Shown here in pieces: positions 126-51,063 of a stretch of DNA of 64,000 nt; position 1 is the first letter of the stretch; each line of letters starts with the position of its first letter. Both the position numbers and the translations under genes were made by a program. The notes below the pieces were generated by a model. The model searched no databases, was not told where the DNA came from, and was given only the letters and a program-made list of their open reading frames with translations. The stretch lies in contig NZ_CP042997.1 in NCBI RefSeq assembly GCF_008087625.1, positions 496,001 to 560,000 on the forward strand, read 5' to 3'. This DNA is from Aquisphaera giovannonii. GTDB taxonomy: Bacteria > Planctomycetota > Planctomycetia > Isosphaerales > Isosphaeraceae.

Positions 126-920
126 ATGCCCGACCGCGACGACGACCGCGATCAGCCGGGGGCCCCCTCGCCGTCCCCGCCCGCCCCCTCGCCCGCGCCG
201 CGCATCGTCCCGCTGCCGGGCGCCGACTGCTGGAACGTGATCGGCACCGGCGGCGACAAGAGCTGCCCGGAGCTGGAGCCGCACGTCCACTGCCGCAACT
301 GCCCGGTGTACGCCTCCGCCGCGAGGCGGTTCTTCGACCGCCCCGCGCCGGAGGGGTACCTCGCCGAGTGGACGCGATGGCTGGGCGGCTCGGCGTCGGC
401 CGAGGGCGGGGGCGGCCAGGGCGGCGTCGAGGCGGAGGACGACGCGGCGTTCACGGCCGGCGAGCGGGACCGGCTCAGCGTCCTGATCTTCCGCCTGGGC
501 CCGGAGTGGCTGGCCTTCCGGACGACCGCGGTGGCCGAGGTCACGACCCCGCGCCCGGTGCACCGGATCCCGCACCGGTCCGACGACATCCTCATGGGGC
601 TGGTGAACCTCCGCGGGCAGCTCCAGCTCTGCGTCTCGCTCCACGGCCTGCTCGGCGTCTCGACCCCGGAGGACCCGGCCGCGTCGCGGTCGCGCCTGGT
701 GGTCCTCCGCGACCGCGCGCGGTCCGAGGCGTGGGTCTTCGCCGCCGACGAGGTGCTGGGCGTGCATCGGCTGGCGAAGGCCCAGGTGCTGGGCGTCTCG
801 TCCAGCCTGGCCAACCCCGAGGTCAGCTTCAGCCAGGCGATCCTCTCCTGGCAGGGCCGCAGCGTCAGCTTCCTGGACGAGCAGCGGGTCTTCGCCGCGC
901 TCGGGAGTCTCGGCGAATGA
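126..920 (+). CDS. cheW: CheW-type coupling protein, WspD-like
   Basis: A 264-residue chemotaxis scaffold that should link a receptor to the CheA kinase encoded next. Residues 1-30 are a Pro/Asp-rich disordered leader. Then comes a cysteine-containing block (C35, C47, C56, C59; including CWNVIGTGG and HCRNCPVY) of the kind found at the N terminus of WspD proteins. A CheW beta-barrel domain follows from about residue 115 (LIFRLGPEWLAF, then VHRIPHRSDDILMGLVNLRG), with the usual hydrophobic core and the NLRG turn. The stop codon overlaps the cheA start in an ATGA, so the two are translationally coupled. The cysteine cluster may bind a metal or be redox-active; this is inference. The CheW assignment is firm and the WspD sub-type is likely. 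Confidence 0.9.
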   Translation: MPDRDDDRDQPGAPSPSPPAPSPAPRIVPLPGADCWNVIGTGGDKSCPELEPHVHCRNCPVYASAARRFFDRPAPEGYLAEWTRWLGGSASAEGGGGQGGVEAEDDAAFTAGERDRLSVLIFRLGPEWLAFRTTAVAEVTTPRPVHRIPHRSDDILMGLVNLRGQLQLCVSLHGLLGVSTPEDPAASRSRLVVLRDRARSEAWVFAADEVLGVHRLAKAQVLGVSSSLANPEVSFSQAILSWQGRSVSFLDEQRVFAALGSLGE

Positions 921-3316
921 GCGACGACCTCAGCGGCTTCTCGATGATGGACCTGTTCCGCATGGAGGCGGAGGAGCGCCTGGCCGTCCTCTCCGAGGGC
1001 CTCGTCGCCCTGGAGGGCGGCGGCGCCTCGGCGGCGACGATCGAGCCCCTGATGCGCGCCGCGCACTCGCTCAAGGGCGCCGCGCGGATCGTCAACATGG
1101 ACGCCGCCGTCCGCGTCGCCCACGCGATGGAGGACTGCCTCGTCGCCGCCCAGAAGGGGGCCATCACGCTCTCCCCGCCGGACATCGACGTCCTCCTCCG
1201 CGGCGTCGACTTCCTCACCCAGATCTCCAAGGTCGCCGAGCCCGAAATCGAGGCCTGGCAGGCCGCACGCGCCGGCGACGTCGAGGCGCTCGCCGCCGAG
1301 CTCTCGAAGATCGAGCAGGGCATGACCGCGGAGCCCAGCCCGCCCCCCGCGCGGCCGGCGCCGGCCCCCGAGGCACCTCCGGCCCCGCCCCCTGCACCGC
1401 CTCCGGCCGAATCCCCGGCCCCGCCGCCTCCGGCCGAGCCCCCTGCCCGGCCGCCCGTCGTCGAGGCCGCCCCGGCGGCGAAGTCGGCACCCGCGCCCAC
1501 GCCGCCGGCCCCGGCCCCGTCTCCCTCGCCCGCCCCCGCGGCCGCCGCGGCGGAGCCCGCCGACCGGGTGGTCCGGGTGACGGCGGAGAGCCTGACGCGG
1601 CTGATGGGGCTGGCGGGCGAGTCGCTCGTGCAGACGAGGCGGATCCGGCCGTTCGTCGATTCCTTGCTGGACCTCCGGGGGCGTCAGTCGAGGCTGCTGG
1701 AGACCTTGCAGCGGCTGGAGGACCGGCTCTCGGGCGTCGGCGACGCCCTGCCCGCGGCCGACCGCGAATTGCTCGCCACGGCGCGGGGGCAGGCGGCGCG
1801 TTGCCTGGAGGGGCTGGGGACGACGGTGGAGACGATCGAGGAGTTCGCGCGCGGCAGCGAGGACCTCTCGGGCCGGCTCCATCACGAGGTGCTGGCCAGC
1901 CGGATGCGGCCCTTCGCCGACGGCACCCGCGGGTTCGCGAGGCTCGTCCGCGACGTGGCCAAGCAGCTCGGCAAGCGGGCGAAGCTTGAGGTCGTCGGCG
2001 AGACCACGGGCGTGGACCGCGACATCCTGGACGGCCTGGAGGCGCCGCTGAACCACCTGATCCGCAACGCGCTGGACCACGGCTTGGAGATGCCCGACGC
2101 CCGCCGCGCCGCGGGAAAGGACCCGGCCGGGACGATCCGCCTGGAGGCACGGCACCGGGCGGGCATGCTCCAGATCCTCGTCGCGGACGACGGCCGCGGG
2201 ATCGACCTGGACCGGCTCCGCGCGAAGGTCGTCGAGAGGGGGCTGACGACGGCCTCGGTCGCGGCCCGGCTGAGCGACGCGGAGCTGCTCGACTTCCTCT
2301 TCCTGCCGGGCTTCTCCACCAAGGAGGCGGTGACGGAGCTCTCGGGCCGGGGCGTGGGCCTGGACGTCGTGCAGAGCATGGTCCAGGCCGTCCGCGGCTC
2401 GGTCCGCGTCTCCACCCAGCTCGGCGCCGGGACCCGGTTCATCCTCCAGCTCCCGCTGACGGTCTCGGTGATCCGGGCCCTGCTCGTGGAGATCGCCGGC
2501 GAGCCGTACGCCTTCCCGCTGAACCGGATCGACCGCATTTTGATGCTCGACCGCGGCGAGGTCCGCGAGCTCGAGGGCAAGCCGCACACGCTGATCGACG
2601 GCCAGCCCGTGGGCCTGATCGAGGCCGCCCAGGTCCTGGAGCTCCCCGCCACGCCCCGCGAGAAGGGGAGCCTGCCCGTCGTCGTCGCCAGCGACCGCAG
2701 CCACCGCTTCGCCGTCGTCGTGGACAAGTTCCTGGGCGAGCGCGACCTCCGCGTGGCGCCGCTGGACCCGCGGCTCGGCAAGGTGCCCAACCTGAACAGC
2801 TCGTCGGTGCTGGAGGACGGCTGGCCGGTCCTGATCATCGACGTGGAGGACCTCGTCCGGTCGATCGACAACCTCCTGACCGGCCGCCGGATCAAGCGCC
2901 TCAGCGTCGAGGCCGCCCCCGCCGCCGAGGCCCGCGGCCCGAAGCGCGTCCTCGTCGTGGACGACTCGATCACCGTCCGCGAGCTCGAGCGCCAGCTGTT
3001 GGAAAACCGCGGCTACGACGTGGACGTCGCCGTGGACGGCGTGGACGGCTGGAACGCCGTGCGGTCCCACCGCTACGACCTCGTCGTCAGCGACATCGAC
3101 ATGCCCCGCATGGACGGCATCCAGTTCGTCTCCCACATCAAGGAAGACGCCCGCCTCCGCGCCATCCCCGTGATCATCGTCTCCTACAAGGACCGCGAGG
3201 AGGACCGCATCCGCGGCCTCGACGTCGGCGCGAACGTCTACCTCACCAAGAGCAGCTTCCACGACCAGACGTTCCTGAACACCGTCGTGGACCTCATCGG
3301 CGAGGCGGAGGGGTGA
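917..3316 (+). CDS. cheA: Hybrid chemotaxis histidine kinase CheA with C-terminal receiver (WspE-like)
   Basis: A 799-residue kinase. The order is an HPt domain (phosphorylatable H50 in RAAHSLKGAAR); a long Pro/Ala linker (about 138-215) in place of P1-P2 structure; dimerisation helices; an HATPase domain (N box HLIRNALDHG near residue 379, then VADDGRGIDL and GRGVGLDVV); a CheW-like domain (VIRALLVEIAGEPYAFPL); and a receiver domain from about 675 with phospho-acceptor D726 in VVSDIDMPRMDG. The CheA-REC architecture is that of WspE/FrzE, used in non-flagellar 'alternative' chemosensory pathways. The ATG start at 917 overlaps the cheW stop and gives a canonical HPt N terminus; a longer reading frame upstream overlaps cheW and is not real. 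No flagellar or receptor genes are nearby. Its probable CheB and output partner lie at 45.1-47.4 kb. Confidence 0.93.
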   Translation: MSDDLSGFSMMDLFRMEAEERLAVLSEGLVALEGGGASAATIEPLMRAAHSLKGAARIVNMDAAVRVAHAMEDCLVAAQKGAITLSPPDIDVLLRGVDFLTQISKVAEPEIEAWQAARAGDVEALAAELSKIEQGMTAEPSPPPARPAPAPEAPPAPPPAPPPAESPAPPPPAEPPARPPVVEAAPAAKSAPAPTPPAPAPSPSPAPAAAAAEPADRVVRVTAESLTRLMGLAGESLVQTRRIRPFVDSLLDLRGRQSRLLETLQRLEDRLSGVGDALPAADRELLATARGQAARCLEGLGTTVETIEEFARGSEDLSGRLHHEVLASRMRPFADGTRGFARLVRDVAKQLGKRAKLEVVGETTGVDRDILDGLEAPLNHLIRNALDHGLEMPDARRAAGKDPAGTIRLEARHRAGMLQILVADDGRGIDLDRLRAKVVERGLTTASVAARLSDAELLDFLFLPGFSTKEAVTELSGRGVGLDVVQSMVQAVRGSVRVSTQLGAGTRFILQLPLTVSVIRALLVEIAGEPYAFPLNRIDRILMLDRGEVRELEGKPHTLIDGQPVGLIEAAQVLELPATPREKGSLPVVVASDRSHRFAVVVDKFLGERDLRVAPLDPRLGKVPNLNSSSVLEDGWPVLIIDVEDLVRSIDNLLTGRRIKRLSVEAAPAAEARGPKRVLVVDDSITVRELERQLLENRGYDVDVAVDGVDGWNAVRSHRYDLVVSDIDMPRMDGIQFVSHIKEDARLRAIPVIIVSYKDREEDRIRGLDVGANVYLTKSSFHDQTFLNTVVDLIGEAEG

Positions 3317-6514: not shown

Positions 6515-8788
6515 ATGCGGGACATGGACAGGACGACCCACCAGAGCCCGGGGACGGATTCGCCCACGGTGGCCCGCGCGGATGCCGGGACGACCGAGGT
6601 CGGCGAGACCGTGGTCTTCGCCGCCGAAGGGGCCGGCCCGGGCGGTGCGGCCGAGGGGCCGTCGCTCGGGCGCTACGAGAACCTCGGCGAGATCGCCCGG
6701 GGCGGGATGGGGATCGTCTACCGCGTCCGTGACGGCGCGTTCGACCGCGAGCTGGCCCTCAAGGTGGTGCTCTCCCGCGACCCCGGGCCCGTGATGCGGA
6801 GCCGGTTCGTCGAGGAGGCGCGGGTGACCGGGCGGTTGCAGCACCCGGGCATTCCGCCGGTCCACGAGATCGGCGAGCTGGACGACGGCCGGCCGTACTA
6901 CACGATGAAGCTGATCGACGGCCGGACCCTGGAGGACCTGCTCGCCGCCCGCCCCGACCCGCGGCACGACCCGGCCCACTTCCTCTCGATCTTCGAGGCG
7001 ATCTGCCAGACGCTCGGCTACGCGCACGCCCGCGGCGTGGTGCACCGGGACATGAAGCCGTCCAACATCATGGTGGGCGCCTTCGGCGAGGTGCAGGTCA
7101 TGGACTGGGGGCTCGCCAAGGTGCTCGCGCGGCCGGGCCATCCGCCCGGGCCATCGGACGCGTCGGCGGGCTACACCGAGGGCGCGGGCAAGGGGGACGG
7201 CGACGATGCGGCCGGCGGACGGTCGCTGGCCGGCGACGTGCTGGGCACCCCGGCCTACATGCCGCCCGAGCAGGCGCTCGGGCAGGTCGATCGCGTCGAT
7301 GAGAGGTCGGACGTCTTCGCCCTGGGTGCGATCCTCTGCGAGATCCTGACCGGGGCCCCCCCCTACGTCGACCGGCCCGGATATTTCGCCCACCGCCAGG
7401 CCGCGCGGGCGGACCTCGGCGCGGCGATGTCGCGGCTGGCGGGCTGCGGCGCCGAGGACGAGCTCGTGGACCTGGCCCGCCGCTGCCTCGCGGCCGACCC
7501 CTCCGCGCGGCCTCGGGATGCGGAGGCCGTGGCCGAGGCGGTGGCGTCGCACCAGGAATCGATGCAGGACCGGCTGCGGGCGGCCGAGCTCGCCCGGGTC
7601 GAGGCGGTCGCGCGGGCGGAGCACGAGCGGAAGCGCCGGAGGCTGGCCGTCGCGCTGCTGTCCACGGTCGCGGCGATGATCGGCCTGGGCGGGGCCGGGC
7701 TGACCTACCTCGTGCACCTCTCGCACCAGGGGGCGGTCCACCAGGCGGAGGTGGCGCGCTCCGCCGAGGACCTCCTCGCCCGCGCGGAGGCCCTGGGCCG
7801 GCGGGCGGAGGCCGCCGCCGGGGACGACGAGGCCGCCTGGGCCGACGCCGTGGCCTCGGCCCGCGGGGCCCGCGCGATGCTCGCCGACGAGCCGGGCCTG
7901 GAGGGCCTCCGGCGCTCGGCCGTGGCGGCCGTCGCCGAGATCGAGCGTCGCCGCGAGGGCTGCCGGTCGCTCGTGCCGGGGTGCCTCGCCGCGTCGAACC
8001 GCTACCGGGCCGACGGCCCGGTGCCGCCCCAGGCCGTCGACCACGATGACCCGGGCCCCGGCACGCCGCCCGACTATTCGGGCGTCTCGATCCTGCGGCG
8101 GAGCATCTTCTTCGACCTCTCCGGCTGGAGGCGCCTGCCGCCGGGCGTCGACCCCGCGGCCGCCGGGCGCGTCGAGCCGACGAATTACACCCAGGTGCTG
8201 GACCTCGTCCGGAAGCAGAACGTCACCGCGGACAACCGCCGGCTCATCTTCCCCTTCCGCACCGAGGGCTACGAGGTGGACCTCCGCTGCGCCAACCTCC
8301 CGTACACGGTCCGCGGCCCGGCCGCCCGCGAGCCGCTCGGCGGGGGGACCCGCCCGGTGCTCCGCCGCGACCTGGTGATCGACATCTCCGGGTGCCAGCC
8401 CGGCAAGGAGTCGCGGGTCGTCATCCAGGCGACCATCTGGAACGGCTTCCAGCCCGACGCCGACGGCCGGACCTGGGCCGGCATGCTCGCGGCCGACGAC
8501 CTCTCCGAGGCCGAGATCGCCGTGAAGTTCGCCGACGGCCGCAAGCCGAAGGCCCCGCCCACGCTCTACGTCTTCCAGCGCGGCTCCGACAGGAAGGAGG
8601 CGCCCCACATCACCCAGGACTTCCGCAACCCCCTGGACCGCGACTGGTGGCTCTGGCGCCCGCGCGACATCCTCAAGGACAGCGTCTATCAGGTCGCCTG
8701 GAGCTGGCCCGGGCCGAAGGACGGTGCGGCCGCGATGCCGCGGACGCCGGACCTCGCAAGATCCGATCGTGCCGTCGTGCGACGCTGA
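6515..8788 (+). CDS. Membrane-anchored Ser/Thr protein kinase (PknB type) with novel C-terminal region
   Basis: 757 residues. The kinase domain spans about 50-330: glycine loop GEIARGGMGIVYRV, ATP-binding K83, catalytic loop HRDMKPSN (H177, D179), and DWG in place of DFG (D197), as in many planctomycete kinases. APE is replaced by PPEQ. A coiled region (about 330-375) leads to one transmembrane helix near 377-400 (LAVALLSTVAAMIGLGGAGL). The outer ~350 residues start with a helical linker, then a beta-rich domain (RRSIFFDLSGWRRLPPG ... WWLWRPRDILKD) that I do not recognise; it could sense an extracytoplasmic signal. The start is at 6515, or at 6524 nine bases later. The gene ends 4 bp from the convergent zinc-ribbon gene. 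Confidence 0.9.
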   Translation: MRDMDRTTHQSPGTDSPTVARADAGTTEVGETVVFAAEGAGPGGAAEGPSLGRYENLGEIARGGMGIVYRVRDGAFDRELALKVVLSRDPGPVMRSRFVEEARVTGRLQHPGIPPVHEIGELDDGRPYYTMKLIDGRTLEDLLAARPDPRHDPAHFLSIFEAICQTLGYAHARGVVHRDMKPSNIMVGAFGEVQVMDWGLAKVLARPGHPPGPSDASAGYTEGAGKGDGDDAAGGRSLAGDVLGTPAYMPPEQALGQVDRVDERSDVFALGAILCEILTGAPPYVDRPGYFAHRQAARADLGAAMSRLAGCGAEDELVDLARRCLAADPSARPRDAEAVAEAVASHQESMQDRLRAAELARVEAVARAEHERKRRRLAVALLSTVAAMIGLGGAGLTYLVHLSHQGAVHQAEVARSAEDLLARAEALGRRAEAAAGDDEAAWADAVASARGARAMLADEPGLEGLRRSAVAAVAEIERRREGCRSLVPGCLAASNRYRADGPVPPQAVDHDDPGPGTPPDYSGVSILRRSIFFDLSGWRRLPPGVDPAAAGRVEPTNYTQVLDLVRKQNVTADNRRLIFPFRTEGYEVDLRCANLPYTVRGPAAREPLGGGTRPVLRRDLVIDISGCQPGKESRVVIQATIWNGFQPDADGRTWAGMLAADDLSEAEIAVKFADGRKPKAPPTLYVFQRGSDRKEAPHITQDFRNPLDRDWWLWRPRDILKDSVYQVAWSWPGPKDGAAAMPRTPDLARSDRAVVRR

Positions 8789-8792
8789 GGTG

Positions 8793-9245
8793 TCAGGCGT
8801 CCAGACGGTGCTGCGACTCCGGCGGAACGAGCTCCCTCAGGAGTCGCTCATATTTCGGGAGGTGCTCCATCTCGAGCCGCTCCTGCTCTCCGCGAATCAT
8901 GGCGAGCCGCGTGAGGTCTTCCTCCTGCAATCCCTCGCGTAACGCCTCGATCGTCGAGGAGGAGGCCCGGAGTTCCAGACTCGCCAGCCGACTCAGGTCG
9001 CTCCACTGCGGGGAGCAATCGACGCAGACCCATGACGGGAGTTCGGATCTCTTGACGACGAGGCGGCCGACGACCAGAGTCGGGTCGACGGAGGTGAAAT
9101 AACGGTGGCTCAGCCCGAGGAGCGCTTCCCCAGCGTCGAGCGCCCTGGCGTCCTCCGGATACAATTCGAAGTAGCCCCAGATTACCCGCACGAGACGGTT
9201 GCCGCGGCATCTCTCGCAGCATCCGGGCTTCGGTTGGCCTCTCAT
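8793..9245 (-). CDS. Zinc-ribbon hypothetical protein
   Basis: 150 residues, with no known function. Cysteines C9/C10/C13 (GCCERCRG) and C74/C77 (WVCVDC) form a likely zinc ribbon around a small beta domain. The C-terminal half is helical and charged (EALREGLQEEDLTRLAMIRG, EQERLEMEHLPKYERLLREL), probably a coiled coil. The ATG at 9245 was chosen because the reading frame further upstream is low-complexity and runs into intergenic repeat DNA. It could bind nucleic acid or a protein partner, but nothing in the sequence decides this. Confidence 0.6.
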   Translation of the reverse strand: MRGQPKPGCCERCRGNRLVRVIWGYFELYPEDARALDAGEALLGLSHRYFTSVDPTLVVGRLVVKRSELPSWVCVDCSPQWSDLSRLASLELRASSSTIEALREGLQEEDLTRLAMIRGEQERLEMEHLPKYERLLRELVPPESQHRLDA

Positions 9246-9660
9246 TGGCTGGGCCTCCACGAGTCGACGCGGTTCACTCGCCGTCCGCTCGCCGGCTCCC
9301 GGCACGGCGGCCGCGCTGGCTCCTTCACTCGCTTCCGCTGGGATCCCGGCGGCCATCATACCGTCGCACGGTCCGTTCGCGCACCACTCCGCGGACGGGA
9401 TCAGACCGCCACGTCCTTCGGCGCGGGTAGTCCGGCCCGTCCGCGATGACGATCCGATCCCGTGCATCCGCGCTCCGCTTGACGCACCCTGCAAGAGACG
9501 GATCCGTCCGTGGCCTGGGGGGCGGCTCCGGGGCCGCGGGGCTCGCGGAGATCCTTCGAGTGCCGCTGTGGGAGTCCCCTCGGCACGCGAATCCCGGCGT
9601 CGGTGACGGTCGTTCCGCCCGGGCGGAGTGCGGCCGGGCGGGACGGGCCGGGGGCGTGGC
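9246..9660. other. Non-coding stretch with one REP-like palindrome
   Basis: 415 bp between two minus-strand genes. No credible gene was seen. It holds the isolated REP-like copy described at 9462-9497. The rest is ordinary high-GC sequence that should include the promoter of the zinc-ribbon gene. Confidence 0.5.
9462..9497. repeat. REP-like element (isolated copy)
   Basis: This 36-bp element (contains CCGCGCTCCGCTTGACGC, ending in CCCTGCAAGAG) is the reverse complement, with three mismatches, of the repeat at 14891-14926 next to the tyrosine transposase gene. It shares the TTGACGCACCCT core and lies 5 kb away in a different intergenic region. That suggests dispersal of the repeat family rather than local duplication. 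Confidence 0.75.
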
Positions 9661-45056: not shown

Positions 45057-46253
45057 TCAGAAGATCAGCTCGACGATCGACAGGTCGTCGGCGAAGTCGT
45101 CCCGGCCCATGATCTGGCGGTCGTGCGCGATCAGGCGGTCCATCTTGGAGCCCTCGAGCCCCTCGTGGGGGCCCCGGCCCATGTAGTCCAGGAACTCGCT
45201 GAACGGCCACATCGACTTGTCGGCCTTCTCGAGCTCGTAGGCGCCGTCGCTGAAGACGTAGATCGTGGCGAACCGGTCCAGGGTGGTGGTCCCGGACTCG
45301 TATTCCATGTCGGTCATGACGCCGATCATCGGGCCCTTGGAGTCGAGCACCTCCAGCTTCGCCTCCGCGGCCGACGGCCCGCCGATGAGCAGGGCCGGCG
45401 GGTGGCCGCCGCCCGAGTAGTCGACCCGCCGGGTCGGCTTGTGGAAGACCCCGTACCAGATCGTGAAATACAGGCCGTTCTGCTGGTCCATCTGGAACGC
45501 GTTGTTGAGCGCGAAGAGGACCTGGCTGGGCTTGCGGAAGTCGGTGTTCGGCAGCGCCTGGGAGCGCAAGGCGTTCATCGCGGAGACCGACAGCAACGCC
45601 GCGCCGACGCCGTGGCCGCTGACGTCCAGGAGGTAGAAGGCGAAGTGGTCGTCGTCCAGCCAGTGGTAGCCGAAGGAGTCGCCGCCGAGCTCCGCGGAGG
45701 GGACGAACCGCCAGTCGGTCCGGATCTCGCCCTTCTTCAGCTTGTCCGGCAGCAGCGAGAGCACGTAGCGCTCGGCCTGCTTGACCTCGTCGGCCAGGCG
45801 CTTCTGGCTCTCCATCAGGGCCTGGTAGGCCTCGTTGCGCTGGAGCTGGGCGATGTAGCCCTTGGAGTGGTACCGGATCCGGGCCAGCAGCTCCAGGCGG
45901 TCGGGGAGCTTGACGACGTAGTCGTTGGCCCCCAGGGCGAAGGCCTCCGCCTTGACCGCCGGCTCCTCCTTGGTGGAGAGGACGATCATGGGGGTCTCCT
46001 TCGTCGCCTCGTTGGCCCGGAAGTTCTTCACCAGGGTCAGGCCGTCGATGTCCGGCATGACGAGGTCCTGGAGGATCACGGTGGGCCCGATCCGGCCGGC
46101 CTCCTCGAGCGCCTTCGAGGCGTCGCGGCAGTAGTGGAAGTCGACGTCGGGCTCGCCGGCCAGCATCCGCCGCACGACCTCGCCTATCATCGGCTGGTCG
46201 TCGATCAGGAGGACGGTCACCTTGTGCTGAGTCAGCAGCGGCTCGTTGCTCAT
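45057..46253 (-). CDS. WspR-type response regulator with PP2C (SpoIIE/RsbU-like) phosphatase output
   Basis: 398 residues. Residues 10-130 are a receiver domain very similar in motif order to that of WspR: LLIDDQPMIGEVVRRMLAG, phospho-acceptor D63 in VILQDLVMPDIDGLTLV, VLSTKEEP, GANDYVVKLPDRLELLARIR. A helical linker (about 130-170) leads to a PP2C domain instead of GGDEF. Its metal-binding motifs are GGDSFGYHWLDDDHFAFYLL, DVSGHGVGAALL, GGGHPPALL, FSDGAYE and the C-terminal DDLSIV. Such phosphatases usually dephosphorylate anti-anti-sigma (STAS) proteins in partner-switching cascades. The WspF-like CheB gene is 45 bp upstream. Activation by CheA-REC phosphorylation is inferred. Confidence 0.92.
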   Translation of the reverse strand: MSNEPLLTQHKVTVLLIDDQPMIGEVVRRMLAGEPDVDFHYCRDASKALEEAGRIGPTVILQDLVMPDIDGLTLVKNFRANEATKETPMIVLSTKEEPAVKAEAFALGANDYVVKLPDRLELLARIRYHSKGYIAQLQRNEAYQALMESQKRLADEVKQAERYVLSLLPDKLKKGEIRTDWRFVPSAELGGDSFGYHWLDDDHFAFYLLDVSGHGVGAALLSVSAMNALRSQALPNTDFRKPSQVLFALNNAFQMDQQNGLYFTIWYGVFHKPTRRVDYSGGGHPPALLIGGPSAAEAKLEVLDSKGPMIGVMTDMEYESGTTTLDRFATIYVFSDGAYELEKADKSMWPFSEFLDYMGRGPHEGLEGSKMDRLIAHDRQIMGRDDFADDLSIVELIF

Positions 46254-46298: not shown

Positions 46299-47363
46299 TC
46301 ACCGCGGGGCGGGGCGCGTCTGCGCCCGACCGGGGGACTGCACCTGGATCAGGTTGGAGATGACCGGCCCGATCCGCGGCAGGGGGAGGACGAATTCGGC
46401 CCCGTCGAGCTCCACGGCGGCGCGGGGCATCCCCCAGACGACGCTCGTCTCCTCGTCCTGGGCGATGGTCCGCCAGCCGAGCCGGCGGAGGCCCGCCAGC
46501 CCCTCGGCGCCGTCGCGGCCCATGCCGGTCAGCAGGGCGGCGACGCCGGGCCGGGGCCAGTGCCGCGCCACGCTCTTGAAGAAGACGTCCACCGAGGGCC
46601 GGTAGTTGAGCAGGCGGGGCTCGGCCGAGTAATAGAGCCGGCGGTCGGACTGCATGACGAGGTGGTCGCCCGTGGCCGAGAGGAGGATCTTCCCCGGGGC
46701 CGGCGCGTCGCCGCCGACGGCCAGGTCCACCTTGCGCCCGGCGAACTCGCCCAGCCACTGGGCCAGCCCCGGCGCGAACGCGGCGTCCACGTGCTGGACG
46801 ATGACGACGGACGCCTCCGGCCCCGGGGGCAGGAGCGGGAGGATCTCCGCCAGGGCGAACGGGCCGCCGGTGGACGACCCGAGCACGATCAGGGGGTGGT
46901 CCGCGGGCGCGGCGACCGGCCGGACGGCCATCGCCGGGACCGTCGAATCCTCCCCCCGCGCGGGGGCCTTGCCGACCAGCCGGGCGATGACGTCGATCTT
47001 CCTGAGCAGGGGCGAGGCCTCGGCCACCTGGCCGCCCGGCCCGATGATCGGCGTGTCCACCGCGTCCAGCGCCCCGTAGCCCATCGCCTGGTAGACCTTC
47101 TGGATGTGCCCGCTGACGGTGGCCGTCACCACGAGGATGGCGCAGGGGGCCTCCGCCATGATCCTCCGGGTGGCCTCCACGCCGTCCATCCGGGGCATGA
47201 ACAGGTCCATCAGGACGATGTCCGGCACGTCCGCCTTCGCCATCGCGACGGCCTCCTCGCCGTCCCTCGCCACCCAGGCGACCTCCTGCCCCGGCACGGA
47301 CGCCACCACCCGCCGCAGCACCTCGCAGGCCATCACCGAGTCGTTGACGATGCCCACTCTCAT
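46299..47363 (-). CDS. cheB: Chemotaxis protein-glutamate methylesterase CheB (WspF-like)
   Basis: 354 residues. The N-terminal receiver is RVGIVNDSVMACEVLRR with phospho-acceptor Asp in DIVLMDLFMPRMDGVEATRR. The linker region CAILVVTATVSGHIQKVYQA and AMGYGALDAVDTP match WspF. The methylesterase domain starts near 160 with the catalytic triad: GSSTGGPFALAE (Ser), VQHVDAAF (His), and LTGMGRDGAEGL (Asp). It should remove methyl groups from a receptor, setting adaptation of the Wsp-like pathway. The ATG at 47363 gives a normal receiver start; a 13-residue longer frame exists upstream. The gene is 45 bp upstream of the PP2C regulator. Confidence 0.93.
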   Translation of the reverse strand: MRVGIVNDSVMACEVLRRVVASVPGQEVAWVARDGEEAVAMAKADVPDIVLMDLFMPRMDGVEATRRIMAEAPCAILVVTATVSGHIQKVYQAMGYGALDAVDTPIIGPGGQVAEASPLLRKIDVIARLVGKAPARGEDSTVPAMAVRPVAAPADHPLIVLGSSTGGPFALAEILPLLPPGPEASVVIVQHVDAAFAPGLAQWLGEFAGRKVDLAVGGDAPAPGKILLSATGDHLVMQSDRRLYYSAEPRLLNYRPSVDVFFKSVARHWPRPGVAALLTGMGRDGAEGLAGLRRLGWRTIAQDEETSVVWGMPRAAVELDGAEFVLPLPRIGPVISNLIQVQSPGRAQTRPAPR

Positions 47364-47529
47364 GAGATGCCCCGGCGCGCGGATGGGAGTCTCCCCGGAC
47401 ACCTTACCACAAGCCGGGCCCCCAATGCTCGCCCCGATGCGGCCTCATCGCCGGTCTTCTGGTTTCAAGTCGGGAGGCTCCCGGCATGGGAATGAGGCCC
47501 GATTCGGCTCACGGCCGGACCATCATCAT

Positions 47530-50676: not shown

Positions 50677-51063
50677 TCAGTACGAGCCGCCGCTCGAGCC
50701 GCCGGACGGGATCATGCCGCCGCTGGAGCCGCCGCTGGAGCCGCCGCCGTGGTGCTTCTTCAGGAACCCGCCGCCGCTGGAGCCGCCGCCATGGTGGAGG
50801 AACCCGCCGCCGCCGCTGGAACCGCCGCTGGAGCCGCCGCCATGGTGGAGGAACCCGCCGGTCGGGAGCAGCCCGCCGCCGCTGGAGCCGCCGCCGTGGT
50901 GCTTCTTCAGGAACCCGCCGCCGCTGGAGCCGCCGTGATGCTTGTGGCCGCCGCCGCTGGAGCCGCCGCTCGAACCCCCGTCGGCAAACGCCGGCGAGCC
51001 GATCGATAGCGCCAGGACGCTCAGGGAAACGACCGCGCGGAACGAACGCCGAGATTTCGCCAT
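50677..51063 (-). CDS. Secreted Gly/Ser/His-rich repeat protein
   Basis: 128 residues. A signal peptide (about 1-27, RRSFRAVVSLSVLALSIGSP) is followed entirely by low-complexity repeats: SSGG units separated by FLKKHHGG or FLHHGG (e.g. HKHHGGSSGGGFLKKHH). At DNA level this is an imperfect minisatellite of GCCGCCGCTGGAGCC-like units. The His/Lys/Gly composition suggests a flexible surface or matrix protein that could bind metal, but no family is recognised. A promoter-like sequence lies about 165 bp upstream. Confidence 0.75.
   Translation of the reverse strand: MAKSRRSFRAVVSLSVLALSIGSPAFADGGSSGGSSGGGHKHHGGSSGGGFLKKHHGGGSSGGGLLPTGGFLHHGGGSSGGSSGGGGFLHHGGGSSGGGFLKKHHGGGSSGGSSGGMIPSGGSSGGSY

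Follow-up and report, generated by a model that had tools for sequence, protein, structure and literature searches.

The fusion gene and its receiver

The window analyzed here, a stretch of 64,000 nucleotides from the chromosome of Aquisphaera giovannonii, carries on its minus strand, at 45057–46253, a gene for a 398-residue protein in which a WspR-type receiver is fused to a SpoIIE-type PP2C phosphatase, as assigned from the open reading frame, Pfam, sequence matches to PDB entries and a receiver tree. These boundaries match exactly those given by a first-pass annotation of the same DNA, which named no strand. The N-terminal domain is a Response_reg domain (residues 14–127, positions 45873–46214, minus strand; 69.9 bits against a cut-off of 30.2), and the C-terminal domain belongs to the SpoIIE/PP2C family PF07228 (residues 200–394, positions 45072–45656, minus strand; 122.6 bits against a cut-off of 25), with G191-D192 sitting immediately ahead of the span recognized by Pfam. 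By alignment, the acceptor aspartate is D63, which is unchanged in three alignments; in those of 17 and of 21 relatives, D18, D19, D63, S93 and K115 of the receiver and D192, D210, D336, D389 and D390 of the phosphatase are likewise invariant, and the PP2C motifs D336-G337 and D389-D390 are kept whole among relatives together with D210. Judged from these alignments, the catalytic and receiver residues of the fusion are intact. A structural model of the protein (m7b9833d71444; mean pLDDT 88.0, pTM 0.64) predicts one continuous helix over residues 119–166 (positions 45756–45899, minus strand), which comprises the last receiver helix and a WspR-like stalk and joins the receiver to the PP2C domain without a break. 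Elsewhere in the window, at 50677–51063 on the minus strand, lies a gene for a short protein of Gly/Ser/His-rich repeats (GGSSGGGFLKKHHGGG-like).

The two best sequence matches to the fusion among solved structures are both WspR entries (3bre, 8.4e-56, 192.7 bits; 3i5a, 4.4e-55, 190.3 bits). This match covers residues 11–162, running through the receiver and the helical stalk, and is gap-free in the alignment shown; the third match is RssB of P. aeruginosa (3eq2, 99 bits, residues 12–340). In an IQ-TREE phylogeny of 110 receivers, from which 24 listed loci were left out as near-copies or duplicates, a WspR clade of 67 rows that includes the fusion is split, with support of 98/88, from 43 other receivers, among them Pseudomonas RssB, the second REC-PP2C protein of the A. 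giovannonii genome and other REC-PP2C proteins. A topology constrained to unite 19 Isosphaeraceae receivers with nine non-Wsp REC-PP2C receivers costs 382 log-likelihood units and is rejected (p-AU 9.34e-07). The first-pass annotation had called the receiver WspR-type and had named a grouping with RsbU-type regulators as the result that would tell against it; the phylogeny places the receiver in the WspR clade and rejects the RssB-like grouping, and together with the structure matches it upholds that assignment. Convergence of the receiver on WspR is rejected on the same tree and AU test.

Membership in the clade is not defined by the 150-bit receiver cut-off alone, since two receivers that exceed it (L169 and L173) fall outside the WspR clade, as do those of two full-length matches of 40–42% identity (L022 and L023). 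Among the receiver matches listed for the A. giovannonii genome there is no second receiver of WspR type: no other listed receiver exceeds 37% identity to the fusion (over 142 residues, 58 bits), and the listed runner-up by score to the whole fusion has 30% identity and 109 bits. Ten GGDEF matches occur elsewhere in this genome. Full-length matches to the fusion, at 44–100% identity, are present in 35 of 45 Isosphaeraceae genomes (at least 58% in 32), and an even draw of 392 genomes across the phylum yielded WspR-clade REC-PP2C proteins in 19, at 46–100% identity. The tree also bears on a taxonomic label: the receiver of a MAG listed as Singulisphaera sp. GP187 (L052) groups with the receiver that L051, a Phycisphaerales MAG, encodes and is remote from that of the genuine GP187 (L047), and from its sequence the label is probably wrong.

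The chemosensory array

Upstream of the fusion gene, at a distance of 45 bp, lies a gene for a WspF-like REC-CheB methylesterase (46299–47402, minus strand). In a quick CheB tree (15 listed loci, then L020, L161 and L164, were left out), it groups with Pseudomonas WspF, and the 55 rows formed by the window CheB and 54 other Wsp-linked sequences separate from eight paralogs of the same genome with support of 99. Further array genes stand at the other end of the window on the plus strand: the 3' end of a WspC-like CheR-TPR gene (1–124) whose start lies beyond the window, a WspD-like CheW-domain protein (126–920) and a WspE-like CheA-REC protein with Hpt, HATPase_c, CheW and REC domains (917–3316). 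The TPR part of the CheR scores 25.6 bits for TPR_8, just below the cut-off of 25.7. Beyond the window edge, the same locus (L001) continues upstream with genes for a Peripla_BP_5 binding protein, an MCP and the first of the two CheW proteins. The signaling domain of the MCP scores 281–284 bits against most Pseudomonas WspA proteins versus 75–87 against other Pseudomonas MCPs nearby. A quick tree joins the window CheA to 36 further Wsp-linked CheAs, WspE among them, and separates it from two paralogs of its own genome, which were taken from stretches around CheB genes and form the whole outgroup. The CheA and CheB trees thus agree with an array of Wsp type, and both the WspF-like CheB next to the fusion and the CheA-REC at 917–3316 were correctly recognized in the first-pass annotation.

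The array genes and the cheB–fusion pair of A. giovannonii lie about 42 kb apart on opposite strands, so that the operon is split. Gene order and strands are compatible with a single inversion. However, in two relatives (L034 and L037) pieces from several parts of the 3.3–45 kb stretch adjoin the fusion, so that one inversion is no more than a possible cause of the split. In Aquisphaera insulae, no CheA was found within about 8.9 kb before cheB.

Relatives show an undivided arrangement. MCP, CheW, CheR, CheW, CheA and CheB genes followed by REC-PP2C are contiguous in seven loci (L045, L046 of Singulisphaera acidiphila, L047, L048, L055, L051 and L052), five from Isosphaeraceae and two Phycisphaerales-like, so that REC-PP2C occupies the wspR slot of a wspABCDEF-like order, and the same order ends in REC-GGDEF in the Pseudomonas wsp loci L069–L071 and others. 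The gap between the end of the array and cheB is 3.4 kb in Paludisphaera soli (L037) and 1.9 kb in a Planctomycetales MAG (L043). In 46 of 49 WspR-type REC-PP2C rows, or 45 of 48 distinct loci, since L004 and L043 are one record, the gene immediately before the fusion encodes CheB on the same strand; the three exceptions are L013, L049 and L060, the last with just 536 bp of upstream sequence. The SpoIIE domain of the window protein and the seven whole operons thus bear out the idea of a PP2C output in place of GGDEF, and the synteny of cheB with REC-PP2C to be looked for in other planctomycetes is conserved. At the level of sequence, these comparisons establish a WspR-type receiver with its stalk, an intact PP2C domain, an adjoining WspF-type CheB and a WspE-type CheA, with the array genes lying in two pieces of the chromosome.

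The genome holds a second chemosensory operon (contig C1, locus L186, 7094–17540) with genes for REC, REC-PP2C (7999–9165), STAS_2 (9323–9619), Hpt, CheA, MCP, CheR and CheB. The receiver of its REC-PP2C protein lies outside the WspR clade and the STAS_2 gene directly follows the REC-PP2C gene, an order that points to a plainer form of coupling between array and partner switch within A. giovannonii.

The input of the array appears to differ from that of Pseudomonas. The outer part of the receptor looks Cache-like (dCache_1, 38.7 bits, under the cut-off of 45), unlike that of Pseudomonas WspA, which matches 4HB_MCP_1 at 75.6 bits. Of the seven loci with room to show one, five have a Peripla_BP_5 gene ahead of the receptor (L001, L045, L046, L047 and L055, and not L048 or L052). 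The surface sensing assumed earlier is therefore not supported, and a solute presented by a periplasmic binding protein is the likelier input on these domain assignments.

Proposed mechanism and candidate partners

We consider it likely that the fusion serves as output regulator to a Wsp-type (ACF-class) array, in which PP2C replaces the diguanylate cyclase of WspR and works through a presumed STAS partner switch. The core of this reading, namely that a Wsp-type array has PP2C in the place of GGDEF, was already present in the first-pass annotation, and the receiver, CheA and CheB trees and the wspABCDEF-like synteny argue for it. In such a pathway, the receptor and CheW would control CheA, CheA would phosphorylate D63 of the fusion, and the phosphorylated receivers would pair, changing the dimeric helical stalk and turning on the PP2C domains. 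These would dephosphorylate a serine on a STAS protein, so that a partner would be released from, or handed to, an RsbW-like HATPase_c_2 kinase, and phosphorylation of CheB by the same CheA would provide adaptation. A sigma factor, which the first-pass annotation took as the probable end point, would be a putative target. Published passages describe control of WspR through its coiled-coil stalk (PMC2270323) and control of PPM phosphatases via a dimeric crossing linker on which sensor domains can be exchanged, response receivers being among the regulators (PMC12143880).

The anticipated STAS/anti-sigma pair is found next to the fusion in a few other lineages. A STAS gene and then a HATPase_c_2 gene (an anti-sigma-type kinase), both confirmed by Pfam, come immediately after the fusion gene in L013, a planctomycete from outside the Isosphaeraceae, and in L054, a member of the Lentisphaerae, that is, in 2 of 42 planctomycete and Lentisphaerae rows; the other 40, some of which have less than 1.1 kb of downstream sequence, show no STAS or kinase gene beside the fusion. 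The expected pair is thus adjacent in these two loci, whereas neither gene adjoins the fusion in A. giovannonii itself, where the partners would be encoded away from it; elsewhere this genome has 18 STAS and 34 HATPase_c_2 matches, with many of the HATPase_c_2 scores below the cut-off. A 121-residue STAS protein (C1:6532151–6532513) with weak similarity to the STAS protein of L013 was considered as the missing partner and rejected, as its presence does not track that of the fusion (24 of 35 fusion-bearing genomes, 5 of the 10 others). Among cyanobacteria, a protein of about 197 residues and a STAS-like gene follow the fusion in six of seven rows. The STAS-like genes score 31–43 bits with a profile of our own, the one in L061 having no Pfam match, and the protein of about 197 residues in L061 is a DUF6272 protein, a family to which we take the SiaB-type kinases to belong.

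Two further observations concern these components. In the Lentisphaerae REC-PP2C protein (L054, 9740–11011), about 55 PP2C residues are missing in frame, though STAS and kinase genes come next. In A. giovannonii, a 278-residue protein joins a receiver to an RsbW-type HATPase_c_2 kinase (L099, 1084–1920; C1:5440203–5441009), and two further places, C1:6231307–6232113 and C1:6518837–6519700, combine REC and HATPase_c_2 in a single frame; fusions of this type may place the kinase that opposes the phosphatase in a partner switch under the control of a receiver as well.

The alternative that survives best concerns the substrate. The phosphatase might act on something other than a STAS protein, opposing the Hanks-type Ser/Thr kinases that are numerous in planctomycetes or serving as a protein-binding adaptor in the manner of RssB. 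No STAS gene adjoins the fusion in A. giovannonii, the window contains a putative Hanks-type kinase-like reading frame (6515–8788), and a fold search with the whole model finds RssB nearest and WspR seventh; RssB is described as an adaptor in passages of PMC12143880, according to which the P. aeruginosa protein retains an active phosphatase domain. However, the fusion domain is of the SpoIIE type with all its aspartates retained, and L013 and L054 carry STAS and HATPase_c_2 genes immediately after the fusion, so we regard a substrate of another kind as unlikely, if still worth keeping in mind. Less probable again is an arrangement in which the fusion obeys another kinase and the array at 917–3316 has a different output, their kinship being only historical. 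The distance of about 42 kb between the two gene groups and their opposite strands would allow for this, as would a CheA-REC pathway that terminates in the receiver of CheA itself, but the A. giovannonii genome yielded no other WspR-type receiver for the array, which is contiguous with cheB and the fusion in seven loci and precedes them by only 3.4 and 1.9 kb in Paludisphaera soli and the Planctomycetales MAG, respectively. Finally, it is hardly credible that the fusion is an ordinary RsbU/RssB-type receiver-phosphatase whose receiver merely resembles that of WspR, given that, despite the shared domain order and RssB as the nearest overall fold, the receiver tree, the AU test, the gap-free WspR match through the stalk and the synteny with wsp-type genes all contradict it.

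One receiver module with several outputs

The output regulator of a Wsp-type array, as we read the fusion, belongs to a family with more than one enzymatic output. The output domain is PP2C in 49 of 84 WspR-type rows, a class III nucleotidyl cyclase in 21 and GGDEF in 14; the latter two labels were assigned by short motifs, with a Pfam check on four cyclase rows and one GGDEF row and with phmmer for the Pseudomonas GGDEF rows. The part common to all outputs in alignment extends approximately from residue 12 to residue 155, and beyond it the sequences diverge. PP2C versions occur in Isosphaeraceae, other planctomycetes, a Lentisphaerae MAG and cyanobacteria; cyclase versions in cyanobacteria, Pirellulales-type planctomycetes, Verrucomicrobiales and Desulfobacterales; and GGDEF versions in Pseudomonas, Dyella, Stagnimonas and UASB270. 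The three kinds interleave in the receiver tree, and a single clade of all 44 PP2C-bearing receivers, a group chosen after viewing the tree, is rejected (p-AU 0.00118). In a tree of the PP2C domains (11 loci left out, including L054 with its PP2C cut by the in-frame gap), the cyanobacterial versions form a clade apart from the planctomycete ones. Both results indicate that outputs have been exchanged more than once, and on this phylogenetic evidence the WspR receiver and stalk are a common module that carries at least three kinds of enzyme (GGDEF, class III cyclase and PP2C), repeatedly exchanged.

The order in which these outputs arose is no more than suggested, since PP2C was the query that gathered the receivers. 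When the receiver tree is rooted, Fitch reconstruction assigns PP2C to the base of the WspR clade, both on the best tree and on 397 of the 400 bootstrap trees examined (of 1000), with a sample biased to PP2C and several weak deep forks. The rooted tree, from this biased sample, leans toward PP2C before GGDEF rather than toward a rewiring from GGDEF to PP2C. A tentative extension, which we hold to be possible and somewhat doubtful, is that the WspR receiver and stalk are an old and freely exchanged module that initially drove a PP2C partner switch, which c-di-GMP production in Pseudomonas and the cyclases elsewhere replaced later.

Some members of the family depart from the common pattern. Pirellulales-type MAGs (L087–L092) encode a WspR-type receiver joined to a class III cyclase and show no array genes in the stretch examined; a divergently oriented gene for a PP2C protein of 562–568 residues lies within 0.4 kb of the REC-cyclase gene in L087, L088, L090 and L092 and further away in L089 and L091. 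In bacterium UASB270 (L056, 8499–11500), a Wsp-like operon ends in tandem WspR-type regulators, REC-GGDEF and then REC-cyclase.

Comparison with known systems

REC-PP2C outputs of ACF arrays are, as a class, already on record. A survey of ACF-class clusters with CheR-TPR (PMC3447774) lists REC fused to a protein phosphatase, to GGDEF or to a mononucleotidyl cyclase, a range that the present family resembles; a word search of its text returns no planctomycete, and its passages on these outputs are silent on a WspR-type receiver common to them. No statement of a WspR-type receiver with PP2C or cyclase was found in the literature searched, which mostly excludes subscription papers and was seen partly in excerpt. 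Serine phosphatase and anti-sigma antagonist genes are mentioned for early F7 clusters in passages of PMC7184735, and Wsp genes including WspR have been reported in planctomycetes (PMC6461901). Given the several outputs found on the WspR receiver and stalk, such 'WspR' or 'Wsp' annotations in planctomycetes do not by themselves imply c-di-GMP or surface sensing and cannot be read so unless the output and receptor domains are checked. A study of RsbU (PMC12143880) proposes, in the passages concerned, that sensors, receivers among them, are exchangeable among PPM phosphatases, kinases and diguanylate cyclases, since a dimeric helical linker controls each of these enzymes. A natural series for testing this proposal is the WspR family, in which the same receiver and stalk and a single kind of array occur with three kinds of enzyme.

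Other couplings of chemosensory or receiver input with partner switching provide useful comparisons. The Che1 system of Shewanella oneidensis, as described in passages of PMC9855816, resembles the present one in joining a chemosensory cluster to a partner-switching pair, CrsR/CrsA, with RpoS as the proposed target, but its array is of the F7 class and its regulator has another architecture. RssB/RssC of P. aeruginosa shares the REC-helix-PP2C architecture, RssB being the best whole-model structural match to the fusion, and the RssB gene of a Pseudomonas genome (L166) has a STAS gene after it; the RssB receiver, however, belongs to a clade other than that of the fusion. With RsbU/RssB-type partner switching in general, the fusion shares a SpoIIE-type PP2C domain and its catalytic aspartates.

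In Pseudomonas, the Wsp machinery drives production of a biofilm messenger. The planctomycete system shares with it the receiver, stalk, CheA, CheB and MCP signaling domain and, in relatives, the gene order MCP-CheW-CheR(TPR)-CheW-CheA(REC)-CheB-output. It differs in having a SpoIIE-type PP2C output where Wsp has GGDEF, a Cache-like receptor accompanied by a Peripla_BP_5 gene where WspA is of the 4HB type and, in A. giovannonii, an operon split from cheB and the output gene.
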